Positions 16,535-45,961 of a DNA stretch of 45,961 nucleotides are shown one piece after another. Each line of letters opens with the position of its first letter. The stretch's first letter is position 1. The stretch is from Alphaproteobacteria bacterium (lineage in GTDB: Bacteria; Pseudomonadota; Alphaproteobacteria; DSM-16000; Inquilinaceae), in assembly GCA_028281265.1 (NCBI GenBank), contig JANQKE010000044.1:1-45961 (forward strand). Direction: 5' to 3'. Under the pieces are notes generated by a model. The model made no database searches. It saw only the letters and a program-made list of their open reading frames with translations, and was not told the DNA's origin. The translations under genes and the position numbers were made by a program.

Positions 16535-17313
16535 ATGGCGAACTTCAGATCGAGTGACCGCTCTCAAGCGCTGTTGTTGCCGGTGGATCTGCGGGAGTGG
16601 GTTCCGGAGGACGATCTGGCGCACTTCATGATCGAAGCGGTCGAGCGATTGCCGATCGATCGGTTCAAGGTCAACGGGAAGGGCACGGGCAAGGCGCAGT
16701 ATCATCCGCCTATGATGCTGGCGTTGCGGGGGCAGCTGGACCGGGACATCGCGGCACTGATGGCGCAGGCTGAGGTGGCGGACGCCGAGGAGGGTCCGGA
16801 CCTGCAAGCTCTGCCTGAGGAGATTGGCCGGCGGAAGGCACTGCGGGCGAAGCTGGATGCGGCCTGTGCCCGGCTGGAGGCCGAGGCGCGGGACCGGGCG
16901 GCCGACCAGCAGGCCGATTACGAGGACAAGCGGCGTACCCACGAGGCCCGCAACGGCCGTGGCCGGGCCCCGAAGCCCCCTGACGAGACCCCGCCGGCGG
17001 AGGCGCAGTGGCGGTGTCGCGGTTGCAGGAGCGGCGGGTTTACGATTTCCGTCCGCCTGACCCGGAGGCCAAGCCGCCGCCCGAGCCCAAGGCGGCGTGG
17101 CGGCGGCGTATGCAGGAGAAGATGCAGACCGACGATGCCAAAGCCAGATACAAGCGTCGAAAGTGTACAGTCGAACCGGTATTCGGGATCATCAAGAACG
17201 TCCTCGGTTTCTCCCGCTTCCACCTGCGTAGTCTCGACAATGTCAAAAACGAATGGACCCTCGTCAATCTCGCTTACAACTGCAAGCGTCTCCATAAACT
17301 CAAGACCGCCTAG
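16535..17313 (+). pseudogene. IS1182-family transposase with internal deletion and frameshift
   Basis: The N-terminus is typical of IS1182/IS5-group transposases (SQALLLPVDLREWVPEDDLA, FMIEAVERLPIDRF, YHPPMMLAL). The sequence then jumps directly to a later coiled-coil region (GQLDRDIAALMAQAE), losing the first catalytic Asp region. A frame change near 17000 is needed to reach the C-terminus (YKRRKCTVEPVFGIIKN, NLAYNCKRLHKLKTA). The TAG stop at 17311-17313 is part of the palindromic element that follows. No active enzyme is expected. Confidence 0.85.
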
Positions 17314-17416
17314 AGCATCCTGCGTCCGAACGGACGCAGATAAGATGCTCTAACTCTTTAAACTAGATCATCTTATCTGCGTTCGGATGAGTCCATCTGA
17401 ACGCAGGTTGATCTAG
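17310..17416 (+). repeat. Palindromic repeat family A, copy 2 (complete, right border)
   Basis: The reference copy, 107 bases, CTAG at both ends. Hairpin I: TAGAGCATC, CTGCGTCCG-AA-CGGACGCAG, GATGCTCTA, with an unpaired ATAA in the right arm. The linker is ACTCTTTAAA. Hairpin II: CTAGATCA ... CTGCGTTC ... GAACGCAG ... TGATCTAG. Its left TAG is the stop of the IS1182 pseudogene and its right CTA is the stop codon (minus strand) of the SirB1-like gene. It is inverted relative to copy 1 at position 1. Confidence 0.9.
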
Positions 17417-22405: not shown

Positions 22406-22440
22406 GCCGTACCCTTCCCGCCGCCTGATCCCGCCCGCTC

Positions 22441-22541
22441 GATCGACCCGGCGTTCGGATGGCCTCATCTGAACGCCGGGTCGATCGGTTTCGAAGAGTG
22501 AGAGCCTCTTACCGGCATCCGGTCGGACGCTAAGGATGCTC
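22441..22541 (-). repeat. Palindromic repeat family A, copy 3
   Basis: Reverse orientation, upstream of gor. Hairpin II is GATCGACCCGGCGTTC.GATG / CATC.GAACGCCGGGTCGATC, nearly perfect. The linker is TTTCGAAGAGTGA, then a diverged hairpin I from GAGCCTC to GGATGCTC. The remainder of 22406-22721 holds no gene. Confidence 0.8.
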
Positions 22542-22721
22542 TCATGGCTCGGCGCCCACCAAACCCGCGCGCCGGCCCCAAGGGCAACATCGGGATGACG
22601 GCCGCCGGCGGAAAGCCCTGGACGGTCACGCCAGCCATCCGATGGGATCAAACGGCCTCGCGATGGCGTGAACGGGGCCCGGGCTTGCCGCTCCGCTCCA
22701 ACTCCGGCCCCTTCCGCGCCG

Positions 22722-23651: not shown

Positions 23652-23744
23652 CTATCGCTGAGCCCTATGCGTTGGACCCGGGCGCGGGGATCAGGCTTTC
23701 TGATCATGGGTTTCGAAGATATCGGCCGGGACGGGCGAAGGCCA

Positions 23745-23842
23745 GATCGACCTGCGTTAAAATGGACTTGTCTGAACGCCGGTCGATCGACGTCAAGGAG
23801 TGAGAGCGTCTTGTCCTTGTCCGGTCGGACGCAAGGCCGCTC
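23745..23842 (-). repeat. Palindromic repeat family A, copy 4
   Basis: Reverse orientation. Decayed hairpin II (GATCGACCTGCGTT ... CTGAACGCCGGTCGATC), linker GACGTCAAGGAGTGA, then decayed hairpin I (GAGCGTCTTGTCC ... GGACGCAAGGCCGCTC). It lies between the LysR and DUF1127 genes. Confidence 0.7.
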
Positions 23843-23873
23843 CAGCCCGGGCCCCGCAGCGACGGAGGACGCC

Positions 23874-24588: not shown

Positions 24589-24665
24589 GAGCATCCTTAT
24601 GCTCTTACTCTCTTTGAAGGAGATCGACCTGCGTTCAGAGGAGTCCATCTGGACGTGGCACGGTC
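24589..24665 (+). repeat. Palindromic repeat family A, copy 5 (shortened)
   Basis: Forward orientation. Hairpin I is reduced to GAGCATCCTTATGCTC, followed by linker TTACTCTCTTTGAAGG and a decayed hairpin II beginning GATCGACCTGCGTTCAG with right arm CATCTGGACG. The rest of 24515-24740 contains only a 17-codon open frame (24691-24744). Confidence 0.7.
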
Positions 24666-37313: not shown

Positions 37314-37870
37314 GCAGCTACACCATTCCGGGGGACCTGACCGGGCAGCGACCAGACCGAACGGCGGGGCGAGGGACGGTCCGCCCGATGCCTCGGCTCC
37401 GCTTCCCTGCGCACCTCCCTTGCCGGCCGGGCCGCCGCGCCCATCCCGGTACGGGTGCTCGGAACGGGCCGCCCCGGCGCACCTCCCCACCGGACGCGCA
37501 AGCGCGGCCGACTCCGCCGGGAAGGCGTCTGCCGCCACGCTGGGGCGCGAAGGCTGCGCTTGCGGGGTCTTCCGCGACAGCATGGCGCCCTCCGGGGTGA
37601 CCGGGGCGGGCACGGCCGGCCGGTATCGGGGCGGTCCGAGGGTCGGCGCTGGGCGGGGTGGTCCGGTGTCCCGTCGAGGCCGATAGGGGACGGGGTCGTC
37701 GGATCGTCCACCGGTACGGACGGCCCCGGCTGAGGTGATGCGGGACCGCCGAGGTCATCGCGGACGGGACGTGGCGATGGCGGTGTCGCCGGTCGGGCCG
37801 GATCCGGGGTGCGGCACGGCCGCAGGGGTGTCCCGTCGGCGAACCCGGCCGGTCCGGTCGCCGCGGACTG
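37314..37870. other. GC-rich gap without recognised gene
   Basis: Several overlapping open frames exist on both strands, but all are Arg/Pro/Gly-rich and lack recognisable motifs, as expected from high GC alone. No RNA gene was recognised. It separates the IS256 remnant from repeat copy 6 and the parB terminator. Confidence 0.5.
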
Positions 37871-37956
37871 GATCAACCTGCGTTCGGATGGACTCATCTG
37901 GACGTAGATAAGCTGATCGACGTCAAAGAGGGGGAGCGCCCTGCGTCCGGACCGAG
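37871..37956 (-). repeat. Palindromic repeat family A, copy 6
   Basis: Reverse orientation. Hairpin II with unequal arms (GATCAACCTGCGTTCGGATG ... CATCTGGACGTAGATAAGCT then GATC), linker GACGTCAAAGAGGGG, and a truncated hairpin I (GAGCGCCCTGCGTCCGGACC). One arm carries the ATAAG variant also seen in copies 1 and 2. Confidence 0.72.
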
Positions 37957-42720: not shown

Positions 42721-42839
42721 GTCCGGGGGCGGCCATCGACGCCGCGCCCGACGCCTGCGATCCCGCCGGCATCGCACGGTCTCGCCACCAGGACCGGCTG
42801 GCAGGCTGTTGAAGAGGTCTATTGCGGCTACGATGAGGA

Positions 42840-43870
42840 TTACTTCGGTGGTCCTGTTGTCGAGGGAGCCGGTGAGGTGGGGACGGGATGAGCTTTCAGG
42901 ATCGCTGTTATCGTATGTCGCCCTTGAGGCACGGGTTCGCGGTGACCATCCGCTCGCCAATGATTCGGGAGATAGCGCACGAAGCGCTTTCGGCATTGGA
43001 CGACGCGTTTGCAGTACTCTATCCGCGTCGGTCGGGTCGCCCCCCCGCTTCCTCCGGAACGCTCGCGTCGTGCCATGTTGCCGCCAGGCTTTCCACGGCA
43101 TCCGCTCCGAGCGGTGAGGAGGACGACGATGGCCTGGCCAGGCCGCCGAGCCGGAACGCAAGGTGCAATGGGGGGCGCAACGCGGAGCGTGATTGCCACG
43201 GCGAGAAGCGCTCCAACCCACCGCATCGGAGCACGACGGACCCAGAGGCTCGGCTCTACCGGAAGGGTGATAGCCAGCCGGCCCGGCGCTGCGACCTCGG
43301 CCATGTCCTGATGGAGAACCGCCATGGCCTGGTGGTCGAGGCCGGCGCGAGCCTGGCGACGGGGACGACGGAGCGGGAAACGGCCCTGGAGCTGCCGGGC
43401 CGTCGGCAGGCCGCGCATCGGATGACGACCAAACGGATGACTTTGGGCGCCGACAAGGCTTATGATGTCGTCCAGTTCATCCATGATCTGCGCCGCCGCC
43501 CGATCACACCCCATACCGCCATCGACGGCCATGTCACCGAAACCGGCACGCAGCGCGAGACGACGATCGACCGACGCACCACACGGCATGTCGGCCATGG
43601 GATCAGCTAGAGCATCCTGCGTCCTAACGGACGCAGGATGCTCTAGCTCATTGAAATAGATCAACCTGCGTTCAGATGAGTCCATCTGAACGCAGGTTGA
43701 TCTAGCATGGCAGCACGCGCATCGAGGACGTGTTCGGCCGGCTCGGAGGCTCGGCGGGCTTGAACACGGCGAAGGTTCGCCGGCGCGACCGCGTCGATGC
43801 CGCCGTCACCTTGGCGCTGGCGGCCTGCAACCTCGTTCGCTTGCCCAAGCGCCTGGGGGCACCGGCATGA
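42840..43870 (+). pseudogene. IS5-family transposase, broken by frameshifts, deletion and a palindromic element
   Basis: Pieces in several frames: LSGSLLSYVALEARVRGDHP, IREIAHEALSALDDAFAVLY, FHGIRSER, then a deletion, then HGEKRSNPPHRSTTDPEARL, YRKGDSQ, GHVLMENRHGLVVEA and MTLGADKAYDVVQFIHDLRR, up to TTIDRRTTRHVGHGIS. At 43607 a 99-base family A repeat interrupts the gene, and the reading continues after it with STRIEDVFGRLGGSAGLNTA and ACNLVRLPKRLGAPA and a TGA stop. The order is that of IS5-type DDE transposases. Its terminal TGA overlaps the next gene start. Confidence 0.85.
43607..43705 (+). repeat. Palindromic repeat family A, copy 7 (most perfect, inserted in a transposase gene)
   Basis: 99 bases bounded by CTAG. 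Hairpin I: CTAGAGCATCCTGCGTCC, TAAC loop, exact complement, 18-bp stem. Linker CTCATTGAAAT. Hairpin II: AGATCAACCTGCGTTCAGAT and G, AGTC loop, exact complement, 21-bp stem. Removing the bases from the TAG to the last CTAG restores an open IS5 transposase frame (GHGIS joined to HGSTRIEDVFG), so the element arrived after the transposase. Confidence 0.9.
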
Positions 43871-44196
43871 CCGTCCGGGGCAGGTGGCGCATCGTCGCGA
43901 TGCCGGACTACGAGGCGGACTATCCCGACATGATGGAGCCCGCCTCCATCTTCTTCGATGGTGCCGGTGCCGGCGACTTCGCCTTCGGCTGCGTCACCGG
44001 CTCCCTCTACGGAGCCGCTGATGCCAACGCCGTCGATTTCATCTGGGACGGCAATAATGAGATGGACCAGGCCTGCGGTGATGGAGAGGCCGAGCTCCAG
44101 CCCGACGGCACCCTCGACGGTAAGATCCGTTTCCATCACGGCGATGAGATCCCCTTCACCGCACGCCGTTGGCAAACCTCTTCAACGGCCGGTTAG
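43867..44196 (+). CDS. Conserved small protein of unknown function
   Basis: 109 residues. I know of similar small proteins across bacteria with the pattern GRWRIVAMPDYEADYPDMME, FFDGAGAGDFAFGCVTGSLY, VDFIWDGNNEMDQACGDGEA and HHGDEIPFTARRW; their function is unknown. The sequence is acidic, suggests beta-rich structure, and has no signal peptide. It starts in ATGA with the IS5 pseudogene stop, so it probably relied on readthrough transcription or has lost its own promoter. Its TAG stop is the start of repeat copy 8, placed right at the natural C-terminus. Confidence 0.75.
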   Translation: MTVRGRWRIVAMPDYEADYPDMMEPASIFFDGAGAGDFAFGCVTGSLYGAADANAVDFIWDGNNEMDQACGDGEAELQPDGTLDGKIRFHHGDEIPFTARRWQTSSTAG

Positions 44197-44260
44197 AGCC
44201 TCCTATCTGCGTCCGACTGGACGCAGATAGGAGGCTCTCACTCTTTGACGGCGATCTGGA
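44193..44260 (+). repeat. Palindromic repeat family A, copy 8 (hairpin I complete)
   Basis: Hairpin I is a perfect 19-bp stem, GAGCCTCCTATCTGCGTCC, loop GACT, exact complement. The linker is TCACTCTTTGACGG, then a short remnant of hairpin II (GATCTGG). The left boundary is TTAG rather than CTAG, and the TAG is the stop of the 109-residue protein gene. Confidence 0.82.
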
Positions 44261-44336
44261 GCAAGATGTGATGAGGGTGAGGTATCCTTTGCCCGGCTCC
44301 TGCTCTCGAAACTCTTGCTCTCGACGGTGAGCGTCG

Positions 44337-44397
44337 GAGCGGGGTTCAGACATCCGACGCGATCGCAAACGGGATCGCACCGAACGCCACCCCGCTC
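44337..44397. repeat. Palindromic repeat family B, copy 2
   Basis: GAGCGGGGTTCAGACATCC, CGATCGCAAACGGGATCG, GAACGCCACCCCGCTC: the same plan and about the same length as the element at 31922-31981. It lies just upstream of the EEP phosphodiesterase gene. Confidence 0.6.
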
Positions 44398-44454
44398 TGG
44401 GGACGTCCCGTCATGCGGCGGCCCGCCGCCCCGTTCGCAACCCGCCCATCACCC

Positions 44455-45357
44455 ATGAAGATCGTCACCTACAACATCCAGTACGGCCGCGGCCGGGACG
44501 ACCGGATCGATCTCGACCGCACGGCGGCCGCCATCGCCGGGGCCGATATCGCCGGCCTGCAGGAGGTCGACCGCTTCGCCCCGCGATCGGATTTCCTCGA
44601 TCAGCCGGCGGAGCTGGGATCCCGGCTGCCGAACCATGCCTGGGTATTCGGGCCCACCGTCGATATCGTGGACCCGCGGACGCCGGTGAGCGGTCGCCGG
44701 CGGCAATTCGGCATCATGATCCTGTCGCGCTGGCCGATCCTGACCTCCCGCACCCTGCTCTACTGGCCGAAGATCGGCGGCGGCAATCACCTCTCCCTCC
44801 AGCTCGGGGTCATCGAGGCGATCGTCGCGGCGCCGGCCGGGCCGCTCCGGGTCTATTGCACCCATCTGCACCATCTGTCGCCGCTGTTGCGGGCCCGGCA
44901 GATCGAGCAGCTTCTGGCGATCGTCCGCACCGCGCCGCAGGAAGGCACGGTCGTTTCCGGCGCCCCGCCGGACGGGGAGTGGTACGAGGGCGAGGTCGGC
45001 CCGAAGATGCCGGCCGAAGCGGTGCTGCTGGGCGACTTCAACCTGACCCCGGACAGCGAGAACTACACCCAGATCGTCGGTCCGCCGGTGCCGCACGATC
45101 GGGCCGCGAACGGCCTGGGACCGGCCGGTCACCCGCGGCTGATCGCAGCCGATGGGTTCGTCGACGCCTGGGTCGCGGCCGGCCATGGGGAGAGGGACGG
45201 GGTCACCGTACCCGAGCCCCGGGGGAACCCGACCCCGTGCCGGGTCGATTACGGCTTCGTCTCGGCCGCGCTGGCGGCACGGGTCCGGCGGGCCTGGATC
45301 GACGGTGACACCCCGGCCTCCGACCATCAGCCGGCCTGGTTCGAGCTGGATGGCTAG
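44455..45357 (+). CDS. Endonuclease/exonuclease/phosphatase-family protein
   Basis: 300 residues. EEP-fold motifs in order: MKIVTYNIQYGRGRDDRIDL (Asn), GLQEVDRF (Glu metal ligand), VYCTHLHHLSPLLRARQIEQ (His), LLGDFNLTPDSENY (Asp/Asn), and the C-terminal SDHQPAWFEL (Asp-His). It is a Mg-dependent phosphodiesterase of uncertain substrate, perhaps nucleic acid, phosphoinositide-like lipid or other phosphoester. No signal peptide. The start was set where family similarity begins; upstream bases contain repeat B. The stop TAG belongs to repeat A copy 9. Confidence 0.88.
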   Translation: MKIVTYNIQYGRGRDDRIDLDRTAAAIAGADIAGLQEVDRFAPRSDFLDQPAELGSRLPNHAWVFGPTVDIVDPRTPVSGRRRQFGIMILSRWPILTSRTLLYWPKIGGGNHLSLQLGVIEAIVAAPAGPLRVYCTHLHHLSPLLRARQIEQLLAIVRTAPQEGTVVSGAPPDGEWYEGEVGPKMPAEAVLLGDFNLTPDSENYTQIVGPPVPHDRAANGLGPAGHPRLIAADGFVDAWVAAGHGERDGVTVPEPRGNPTPCRVDYGFVSAALAARVRRAWIDGDTPASDHQPAWFELDG

Positions 45358-45393
45358 AGCATCCTGCGTCCGAACGGATGCAGGTCGATCCAG
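45354..45393 (+). repeat. Palindromic repeat family A, copy 9 (hybrid, short)
   Basis: CTAGAGCATCCTGCGTCC, AA, then GGATGCAGGTCGATCCAG: the left arm of hairpin I joined to a right arm ending like hairpin II. It looks like a deletion between the two hairpins. The TAG at 45355-45357 ends the upstream gene. Confidence 0.75.
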
Positions 45394-45553: not shown

Positions 45554-45961
45554 TCAGTCGTCCGGCCGTAGCCGCGATCGGAGGATGGCGATCCACTCCG
45601 CAGCTTTCGCCCGTTCCCGCGGCGGCATGCGCTCGGCCCAGGCCTCAAGCTCCTGCAGTCGGGTTGCCACCTCGTCCGGTTGCATCCGGGCGAACGCTAC
45701 GACCGTCGACCGAACGAGACTGGCCGTCAGATCCCCCAGGCTTTCCGGTGTGCCGAGCCGGTCGGCGAGGGTGCGGGCGATGTCGAGGCCCTCACGATAG
45801 GCATTGTCTGCGTCGTCCCAGTCGCCGCGGGCTTGGGCGACGTCGCCGACCTTGTTGAGGGCGACGGACAGGTCGCGTTGGCTTTCGGGCGTGCCGAGCC
45901 GGTCGGCGAGGCCGCGGAGGATGTGGAGGCTTTCGCGATAGGCATTGTCTACGTCGTCCCA
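45554..45961 (-). CDS. TPR-repeat protein, C-terminal part (cut by window edge)
   Basis: The last 135 residues of a larger protein whose 5' part lies beyond 45961. Two copies of a 47-residue TPR-type unit are visible: WDDVDNAYRESLHILRGLAD, RLGTPESQRDLSVALNKVGD and a second copy starting WDDADNAYREGLDIARTLAD. The units are very similar at DNA level (141-base period), so the array expanded recently. The C-terminal 70 residues are helical (EVATRLQELEAWAERMPPRE) and non-repetitive. Such arrays occur in large sensor or NTPase-TPR proteins; the N-terminal domain that would tell is not in view. Confidence 0.82.
   Translation of the reverse strand, partial: WDDVDNAYRESLHILRGLADRLGTPESQRDLSVALNKVGDVAQARGDWDDADNAYREGLDIARTLADRLGTPESLGDLTASLVRSTVVAFARMQPDEVATRLQELEAWAERMPPRERAKAAEWIAILRSRLRPDD

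Follow-up and report, generated by a model that had tools for sequence, protein, structure and literature searches.

A twin-hairpin repeat at a CTAG site in a decayed IS5-family transposase gene: probable insertion of a MITE-like element

The host element and the repeat within it

The window analysed here is a stretch of 45,961 nucleotides from an alphaproteobacterial genome assembly, near the right end of which lies a decayed IS5-family element (Table 1). A second copy of this host IS was sought in the source genome and none was found. A full relative from another genus, L019, is 1499 bp long with ends CAGGCTGTTGAAGAAG... and CTAG on either side, and its transposase is assigned to the IS5 family by NCBIfam (NF033581, 233 bits against a cut-off of 140), while the window fragment scores 38 bits with the same model, under the cut-off. 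The flanks of the window element have drifted to CTGG and TTAG, and about 220 bp of its transposase gene have been lost. A small passenger ORF follows the transposase, for which a Pfam search gave no match.

Within the transposase gene lies a repeat of two hairpins (99 bp), whose span in the initial annotation is exact when read from the window sequence. The transposase frame runs ...RTTRHVGHGIS, meets a TAG stop (43608-43610) and is in frame again 3' of the repeat as HGSTRIEDVFGRL...LVRLPKRLGAPA, so the translated frame agrees with the earlier reading that the gene enters the repeat and resumes after it. Of the two uninterrupted stems that had been described, the 18-bp one was confirmed, whereas the second has 22 bp rather than 21. 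Folded as single-stranded DNA, the 99 bases reach -49 kcal/mol, compared with -10.7 +/- 2.3 kcal/mol for shuffled sequences (z = -16.8), and none of 200 shuffles folded as well. The structure is not a product of chance, because the repeat is a member of a high-copy family, of which it represents the short form. It had been called the most perfect copy, which holds loosely, since several other copies in the genome are equally perfect. There is no transposase gene or other coding capacity in the element of 93-103 bp.

The host IS was probably dead before the repeat arrived, because it has lost about 220 bp while the inserted element is nearly perfect. The insertion thus marks the mobility of the repeat, and silencing of a working transposase was probably not its effect.

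Table 1. Coordinates of the host element, the repeat and related features (window positions unless a locus is named)
Feature	Coordinates	Strand	Basis or remark
Host IS5-family element, decayed, single copy	42802-44192	+	terminal repeats 42802-42818 and 44176-44192; flanks CTGG and TTAG
Deletion site, about 220 bp lost from transposase gene relative to L019	43114-43171	+	query 2-314 and 373-807 align to L019 2514-2203 and 1920-1501
Transposase fragment STTDPEARLY...GHGIS	43230-43607	+	
Twin-hairpin repeat including CTAG on each end	43607-43705	+	sequence, fold, genome copies
Hairpin 1, 18-bp stem, 4-nt loop	43607-43646	+	arms 43607-43624 and 43629-43646
Left TA, putative copy of target duplication, within in-frame TAG stop	43608-43609	.	
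Element proper, 93 bp, GAGCATCC...GTTGATC, if the duplication is TA	43610-43702	+	boundary inferred from end variation in 56 young copies and terminal-repeat symmetry
Left terminal repeat GAGCATCCTGCGTCC	43610-43624	+	sequence and family consensus
Linker CTCATTGAAA (family consensus ACTCTTTGAAA)	43647-43656	+	
Hairpin 2, 22-bp stem, 4-nt loop	43657-43704	+	arms 43657-43678 and 43683-43704
Right terminal repeat GATCAACCTGCGTTC, read inwards	43688-43702	-	sequence and family consensus
Right TA, putative copy of target duplication	43703-43704	.	
Transposase C-terminal fragment HGSTRIEDVFGRL...RLGAPA	43706-43870	+	
Small passenger ORF of host IS	43867-44196	+	alignment; match behind L019 transposase (about 1009-1340)
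Family copy cut by contig start	1-81	-	
Full family copy, CTAG at both ends	17310-17416	+	
Old family copy	22439-22542	-	
Old family copy	23744-23843	-	
Partial old family copy	24599-24658	+	
Partial family copy	37868-37950	-	
Hairpin-1-only copy adjoining host IS right end at TTAG	44194-44256	+	
Collapsed copy, hairpin 1 5' arm joined to hairpin 2 3' arm	45354-45391	+	left TAG is stop of ORF 44413-45357
Fourth dispersed repeat	L084:1630-1950, L073:18228-18366, L149:16765-16900 and others		

Empty sites in related transposases

Since the host IS has a single copy in the source genome, relatives of its transposase were searched across 385 genomes of the class. Six relatives from other genera (L019-L024), each aligned as two pieces, one on either side of the site, lack the 99 bases without exception. 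The distance from the serine codon of G(Y/H)xxS to the arginine codon of R(I/V)E is 15 nt in all six and 110 nt in the window. The net insertion is therefore 95 bp, which matches the distance between the two CTAGs, so that the gene regains its expected length and frame once a single repeat unit is taken out. With the window flanks joined, the sequence aligns across the junction to L019 over 305 nt (72%). The host frame without the element reads GIS-TAG-HGSTRIED, and a TAG remains where a Gln codon is expected. In related transposases the codon at this position is CAG, CAA or CTG, usually CAG, which indicates that the stop is part of the CTAG target and not of the element interior.

The initial annotation had proposed such a comparison and had pointed out that the repeat would belong to the IS if uninterrupted copies carried the same 99 bases; none of the six relatives does. 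The idea that the bases are a native part of the host IS, suggested by nothing but their position inside it, is refuted by their absence from the six relatives, all of which have precisely 15 nt at the site, and by their occurrence at hundreds of unrelated sites, and can be given virtually no weight. The annotation had further taken the locus as proof of mobility. Insertion is well supported, but it is strongly indicated rather than proven, because the comparison crosses genera and there is no second copy of the IS in the genome.

Independent support for mobility comes from a copy at L084:1725-1827 that interrupts an unrelated dispersed repeat; it is absent from ten further members of that repeat that were aligned, the exact boundary being blurred by variation. 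This fourth dispersed repeat of the genome is about 125-140 bp long (ATGCGCTGAGGTGACCTCATC...TCGCGATGAG...GCTCATCGCGACG). Usable empty sites were not found in stretches of the sister-genus genome G003 or in MAG PL25a_bin.161, and no presence/absence pair was found within the species.

The repeat family, its ends and its target

An iterated profile search identified 192 family loci, 119 of them near full length, in 1.67 Mb of the source genome. Extrapolation from an unselected subset of 0.94 Mb gives about 390 loci and about 220 near-full copies per genome. Family members are 99-107 bp long and occur in forms of 99, 103 and 107 bp, the main difference being whether a 4-nt TTAT/ATAA block is present in one stem, in both or in neither (consensus CTAGAGCATCCTGCGTCCGAACGGACGCAGATAAGATGCTCTAACTCTTTGAAnTAGATCAACTTATCTGCGTTCAGATGAGTCCATCTGAACGCAGGTTGATCTAG). 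The terminal repeats of the window copy are inverted and imperfect, and they are supported by the consensus of 57 seed copies. Some copies have collapsed by deletion between the repeated arms, as at 45354 and in the hairpin-1-only copy at 44194. The element is also borne by 39 of the 181 contig ends examined, and such repeats account for many breaks in the assembly.

Of the 56 copies with high scores, 38 have CTAG as the left tetranucleotide, eight have TTAG and ten another sequence, while the right one is CTAG in 51. The outer G on the right is constant in 54 of these copies and the outer C on the left in 41. The eight TTAG-left copies have CTAG (seven) or CCAG (one) on the right, and one copy has CTGG at both sides. 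CTAG is 2.5-fold rarer in the genome than expected (604 observed, 1520 expected). Adjacent copies have one CTAG in common, as predicted if an element inserts into the edge of an existing copy.

The two CTAGs had been described as either a four-base target duplication or part of the element. The former is contradicted by the TTAG-left copies with CTAG or CCAG on the right; the C has thus not been duplicated, and the right C is read as element. The latter would hold for the inner C and G, which look like element, whereas the outer C and G look like a preferred target. The 15-nt empty sites point to some duplication of the target. The best alignment of the terminal repeats has the element starting with GAGC and ending with GATC, which leaves TA outside the element. 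Duplication of TA in a preferred CTAG is consequently the simplest and most economical reading and fits best, with TAG as the alternative, although the greater constancy of the right outer G than of the left outer C runs against a simple symmetrical TA model. The element ends are TAGAGC and TAGATC, and the GTAG/GTGG head of REP type is absent.

Two other repeat families of this genome are associated with CTAG. One is larger, modular and bounded by CTAG (CTAGAGCGTTTTCAGGGA...TCCCTGAAAACGCTCTAG, TAGAGCGTTTTCAGGGA), with 60 termini in 1.67 Mb (L049:18903, L057:16088 and L130:8339, all on the plus strand, and about 57 more). It is frequent at contig ends and often has one CTAG in common with a twin-hairpin element, and Rfam gave no match in the four loci searched. 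The other is palindromic and starts with CTAG (CTAGAGCGGGATGGCGTT...GCGATCGC...GACGTCTGAATCCCGCTC; about 44330-44402 in the window, L060:117, L072:2783 and about 210-290 of L146).

Mobilisation, distribution and gene-end sites

The family is short and without a transposase gene, has terminal inverted repeats, and is dispersed in high copy number with empty sites, as is expected of MITEs. We consider it probable that the repeat is a non-autonomous, MITE-like element, represented at this site by a recent copy, and that a TA-duplicating DDE transposase acting in trans brought this copy into a CTAG of the dead IS5-family transposase gene. A transposase supplied in trans would cut out or copy the element, which would then be inserted at the TA inside CTAG with duplication of this TA; the window copy would have landed in such a CTAG after the host gene had died. 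The cognate enzyme is perhaps now lost, or missing from the assembly. A search for an autonomous partner bearing the complete terminal repeat found none in the sequence examined, lone arms being listed for 1.17 of 4.33 Mb.

An enzyme of IS630/Tc1-mariner type is the leading candidate, with roughly an even chance of being the right class. IS630-family elements duplicate TA (PMC2170065), and the preferred target of IS630 itself is given as TA in CTAG (PMC2170065, and Tenzen & Ohtsubo 1991 as listed among its references). The start of contig C170 bears an IS630 transposase fragment of which 63 codons are left (46.7 bits, under the full-length cut-off of the family model). It ends at CTAG with the terminal repeat TAGAGCGTTGTG, which has TAGAGC in common with the twin-hairpin element (beyond TA, GAGC only) and TAGAGCGTT in common with the larger CTAG-bounded family. 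However, IS630-type genes were not found in the repeat-bearing genomes G006, G009, G095 and G371, which counts against this class. Ends of IS630-type (DDE_3) genes are cut at two contig starts of the source genome, C170 (L146:1-215) and C2 (L067:1-260), and the remainder was not found elsewhere in the assembly.

The IS5 type is possible as the enzyme class but is not favoured. Movement by an IS5-family transposase with YTAR targets and a 2-4 bp duplication, as for MITEPsy1 or IS711 and possibly by a relative of the host IS, seems unlikely. It would agree with the CTAG on both sides of L019, with the behaviour of IS711, for which palindromic Bru-RS repeats are a favoured target and which duplicates TA on insertion at YTAR (PMC2266754), and with MITEPsy1, whose insertion at CTAG or YTAA duplicates 4 nt and whose origin has been ascribed to ISPsy2 (PMC3189936). 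Nevertheless, the terminal repeat of the host IS (CAGGCTGTTGAAGAGGT) is unlike GAGCATCCTGCGTCC, and the copies with TTAG on the left and CTAG on the right contradict a 4-nt duplication.

Judged by DNA similarity, the family is strongly represented in G003 and more weakly in G006 and G009. In G009 the ends and the TTGAAATAGATCA linker region are kept, while the stems differ in sequence yet are still paired. A covariance model built from 25 copies matches 30 of the 385 genomes at E <= 0.001, of which the weaker matches may be unrelated hairpins; in G095 and G371 the E-values lie below 1e-13. The family thus has relatives in sister genera and, as far as structure shows, in scattered places across the Alphaproteobacteria. 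Exact pattern matches elsewhere were found only in MAG PL25a_bin.161, labelled Rhizobiaceae, and a blastn search against PLSDB for plasmid carriage gave no match.

The pairing kept in G009, together with double changes in 11 of 33 pairs and the frequent position of element edges at gene ends, might suggest that ancient transposition spread the family and that selection now keeps it mainly as an RNA or DNA structure (a transcript end, RNase site or protein-binding site). We regard this as improbable: the covariation term within the genome is near zero (-0.15 kcal/mol), copies lie in dead genes and other repeats, and no Rfam family reached its gathering score. The weak Rfam matches were nearly all to microRNA models that fit a perfect hairpin, and membership of a known RNA family was therefore rejected.

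Less probable still is an element of REP/REPIN type, which a Y1 tyrosine transposase (RAYT) would move in single-stranded form. The high-copy paired palindromes recall REP doublets and BIMEs (PMC2817692), and some other genomes with related repeats (G006, G009, G371 and G138) do have Y1 transposases. Against this, a search found no Y1 (RAYT-type) transposase in the source genome (99.4% complete) or in G003, the two genomes richest in copies; the GTAG head is missing, and the insertion appears to have duplicated TA.

For the preferred reading of a MITE-like element moved in trans, several known systems offer comparisons. Correia elements of Neisseria are MITE-like, with a TA target and paired structure, and resemble the twin-hairpin family in these respects; they differ in host and terminal repeats. 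RIME1 of Rhizobium, about 106 bp with two large palindromes, and Bru-RS of Brucella (103-105 bp) are, by description, likewise palindromic repeats between genes of Alphaproteobacteria, and their length is comparable. IS711 has a hot spot of insertion in Bru-RS (PMC2266754). REP/REPIN sequences have high-copy paired palindromes in common with the family, but differ from it in their RAYT, their GTAG head and the putative TA duplication.

The family probably works like a MITE, most like RUP and MITEPsy1. RUP of Streptococcus pneumoniae (107 bp, IS630-Spn1) is alike by description in size, copy number (about 110 or more), terminal repeats and, probably, target duplication. It differs in being AT-rich and in having ends that match a resident IS630, whereas the twin-hairpin family matches the resident IS630 end beyond TA by GAGC only. 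RUP has been proposed to insert preferentially in or near IS elements (PMC3049150). MITEPsy1 of Pseudomonas syringae is similar in length (100 nt) and in its CTAG target, but it has a 4-nt duplication and IS5-type (ISPsy2) ends, whereas the twin-hairpin family has two hairpins and appears to duplicate TA only. MITEPsy1 has 18-nt terminal repeats and is experimentally mobile (PMC3189936). The twin-hairpin family is apparently undescribed, though it belongs to a known general kind of small parasitic DNA. Many bacterial palindromic repeats lack demonstrated mobility; here the ends, target and size can be read from an empty site, and the insertion resolves the boundaries of the repeat.

Element edges also often lie at gene ends. 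Of 168 element-edge CTAGs in 1.67 Mb, 33% end an open frame of at least 150 codons, compared with 20% of the CTAGs that lie outside elements and 12% of a sample of TAGs; the contrast is informative and the absolute figure is not, because GC-rich DNA has long open frames by chance. The overlap may result either from target choice or from selection against other insertions, and it suggests a reason why such repeats pile up between genes. It is a rather speculative extension that the family is one branch of an alphaproteobacteria-wide twin-hairpin class with common TAGA(G/T)C ends and a CTAG target, whose stem sequences would be freely swapped, which would rely in trans on any TA-duplicating transposase that the host happens to have, and which would survive because the rare CTAG is enriched at TAG stops that insertion leaves intact. 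An example of the overlap is seen in the window, where the TAG stop of ORF 44413-45357 is the edge of the copy at 45354. To the right of this copy, an open frame on the minus strand (45554-45961) is cut by the contig end and consists of tandem similar units (RGLADRLGTPES...WDDADNAYREGL) that look TPR-like by eye.
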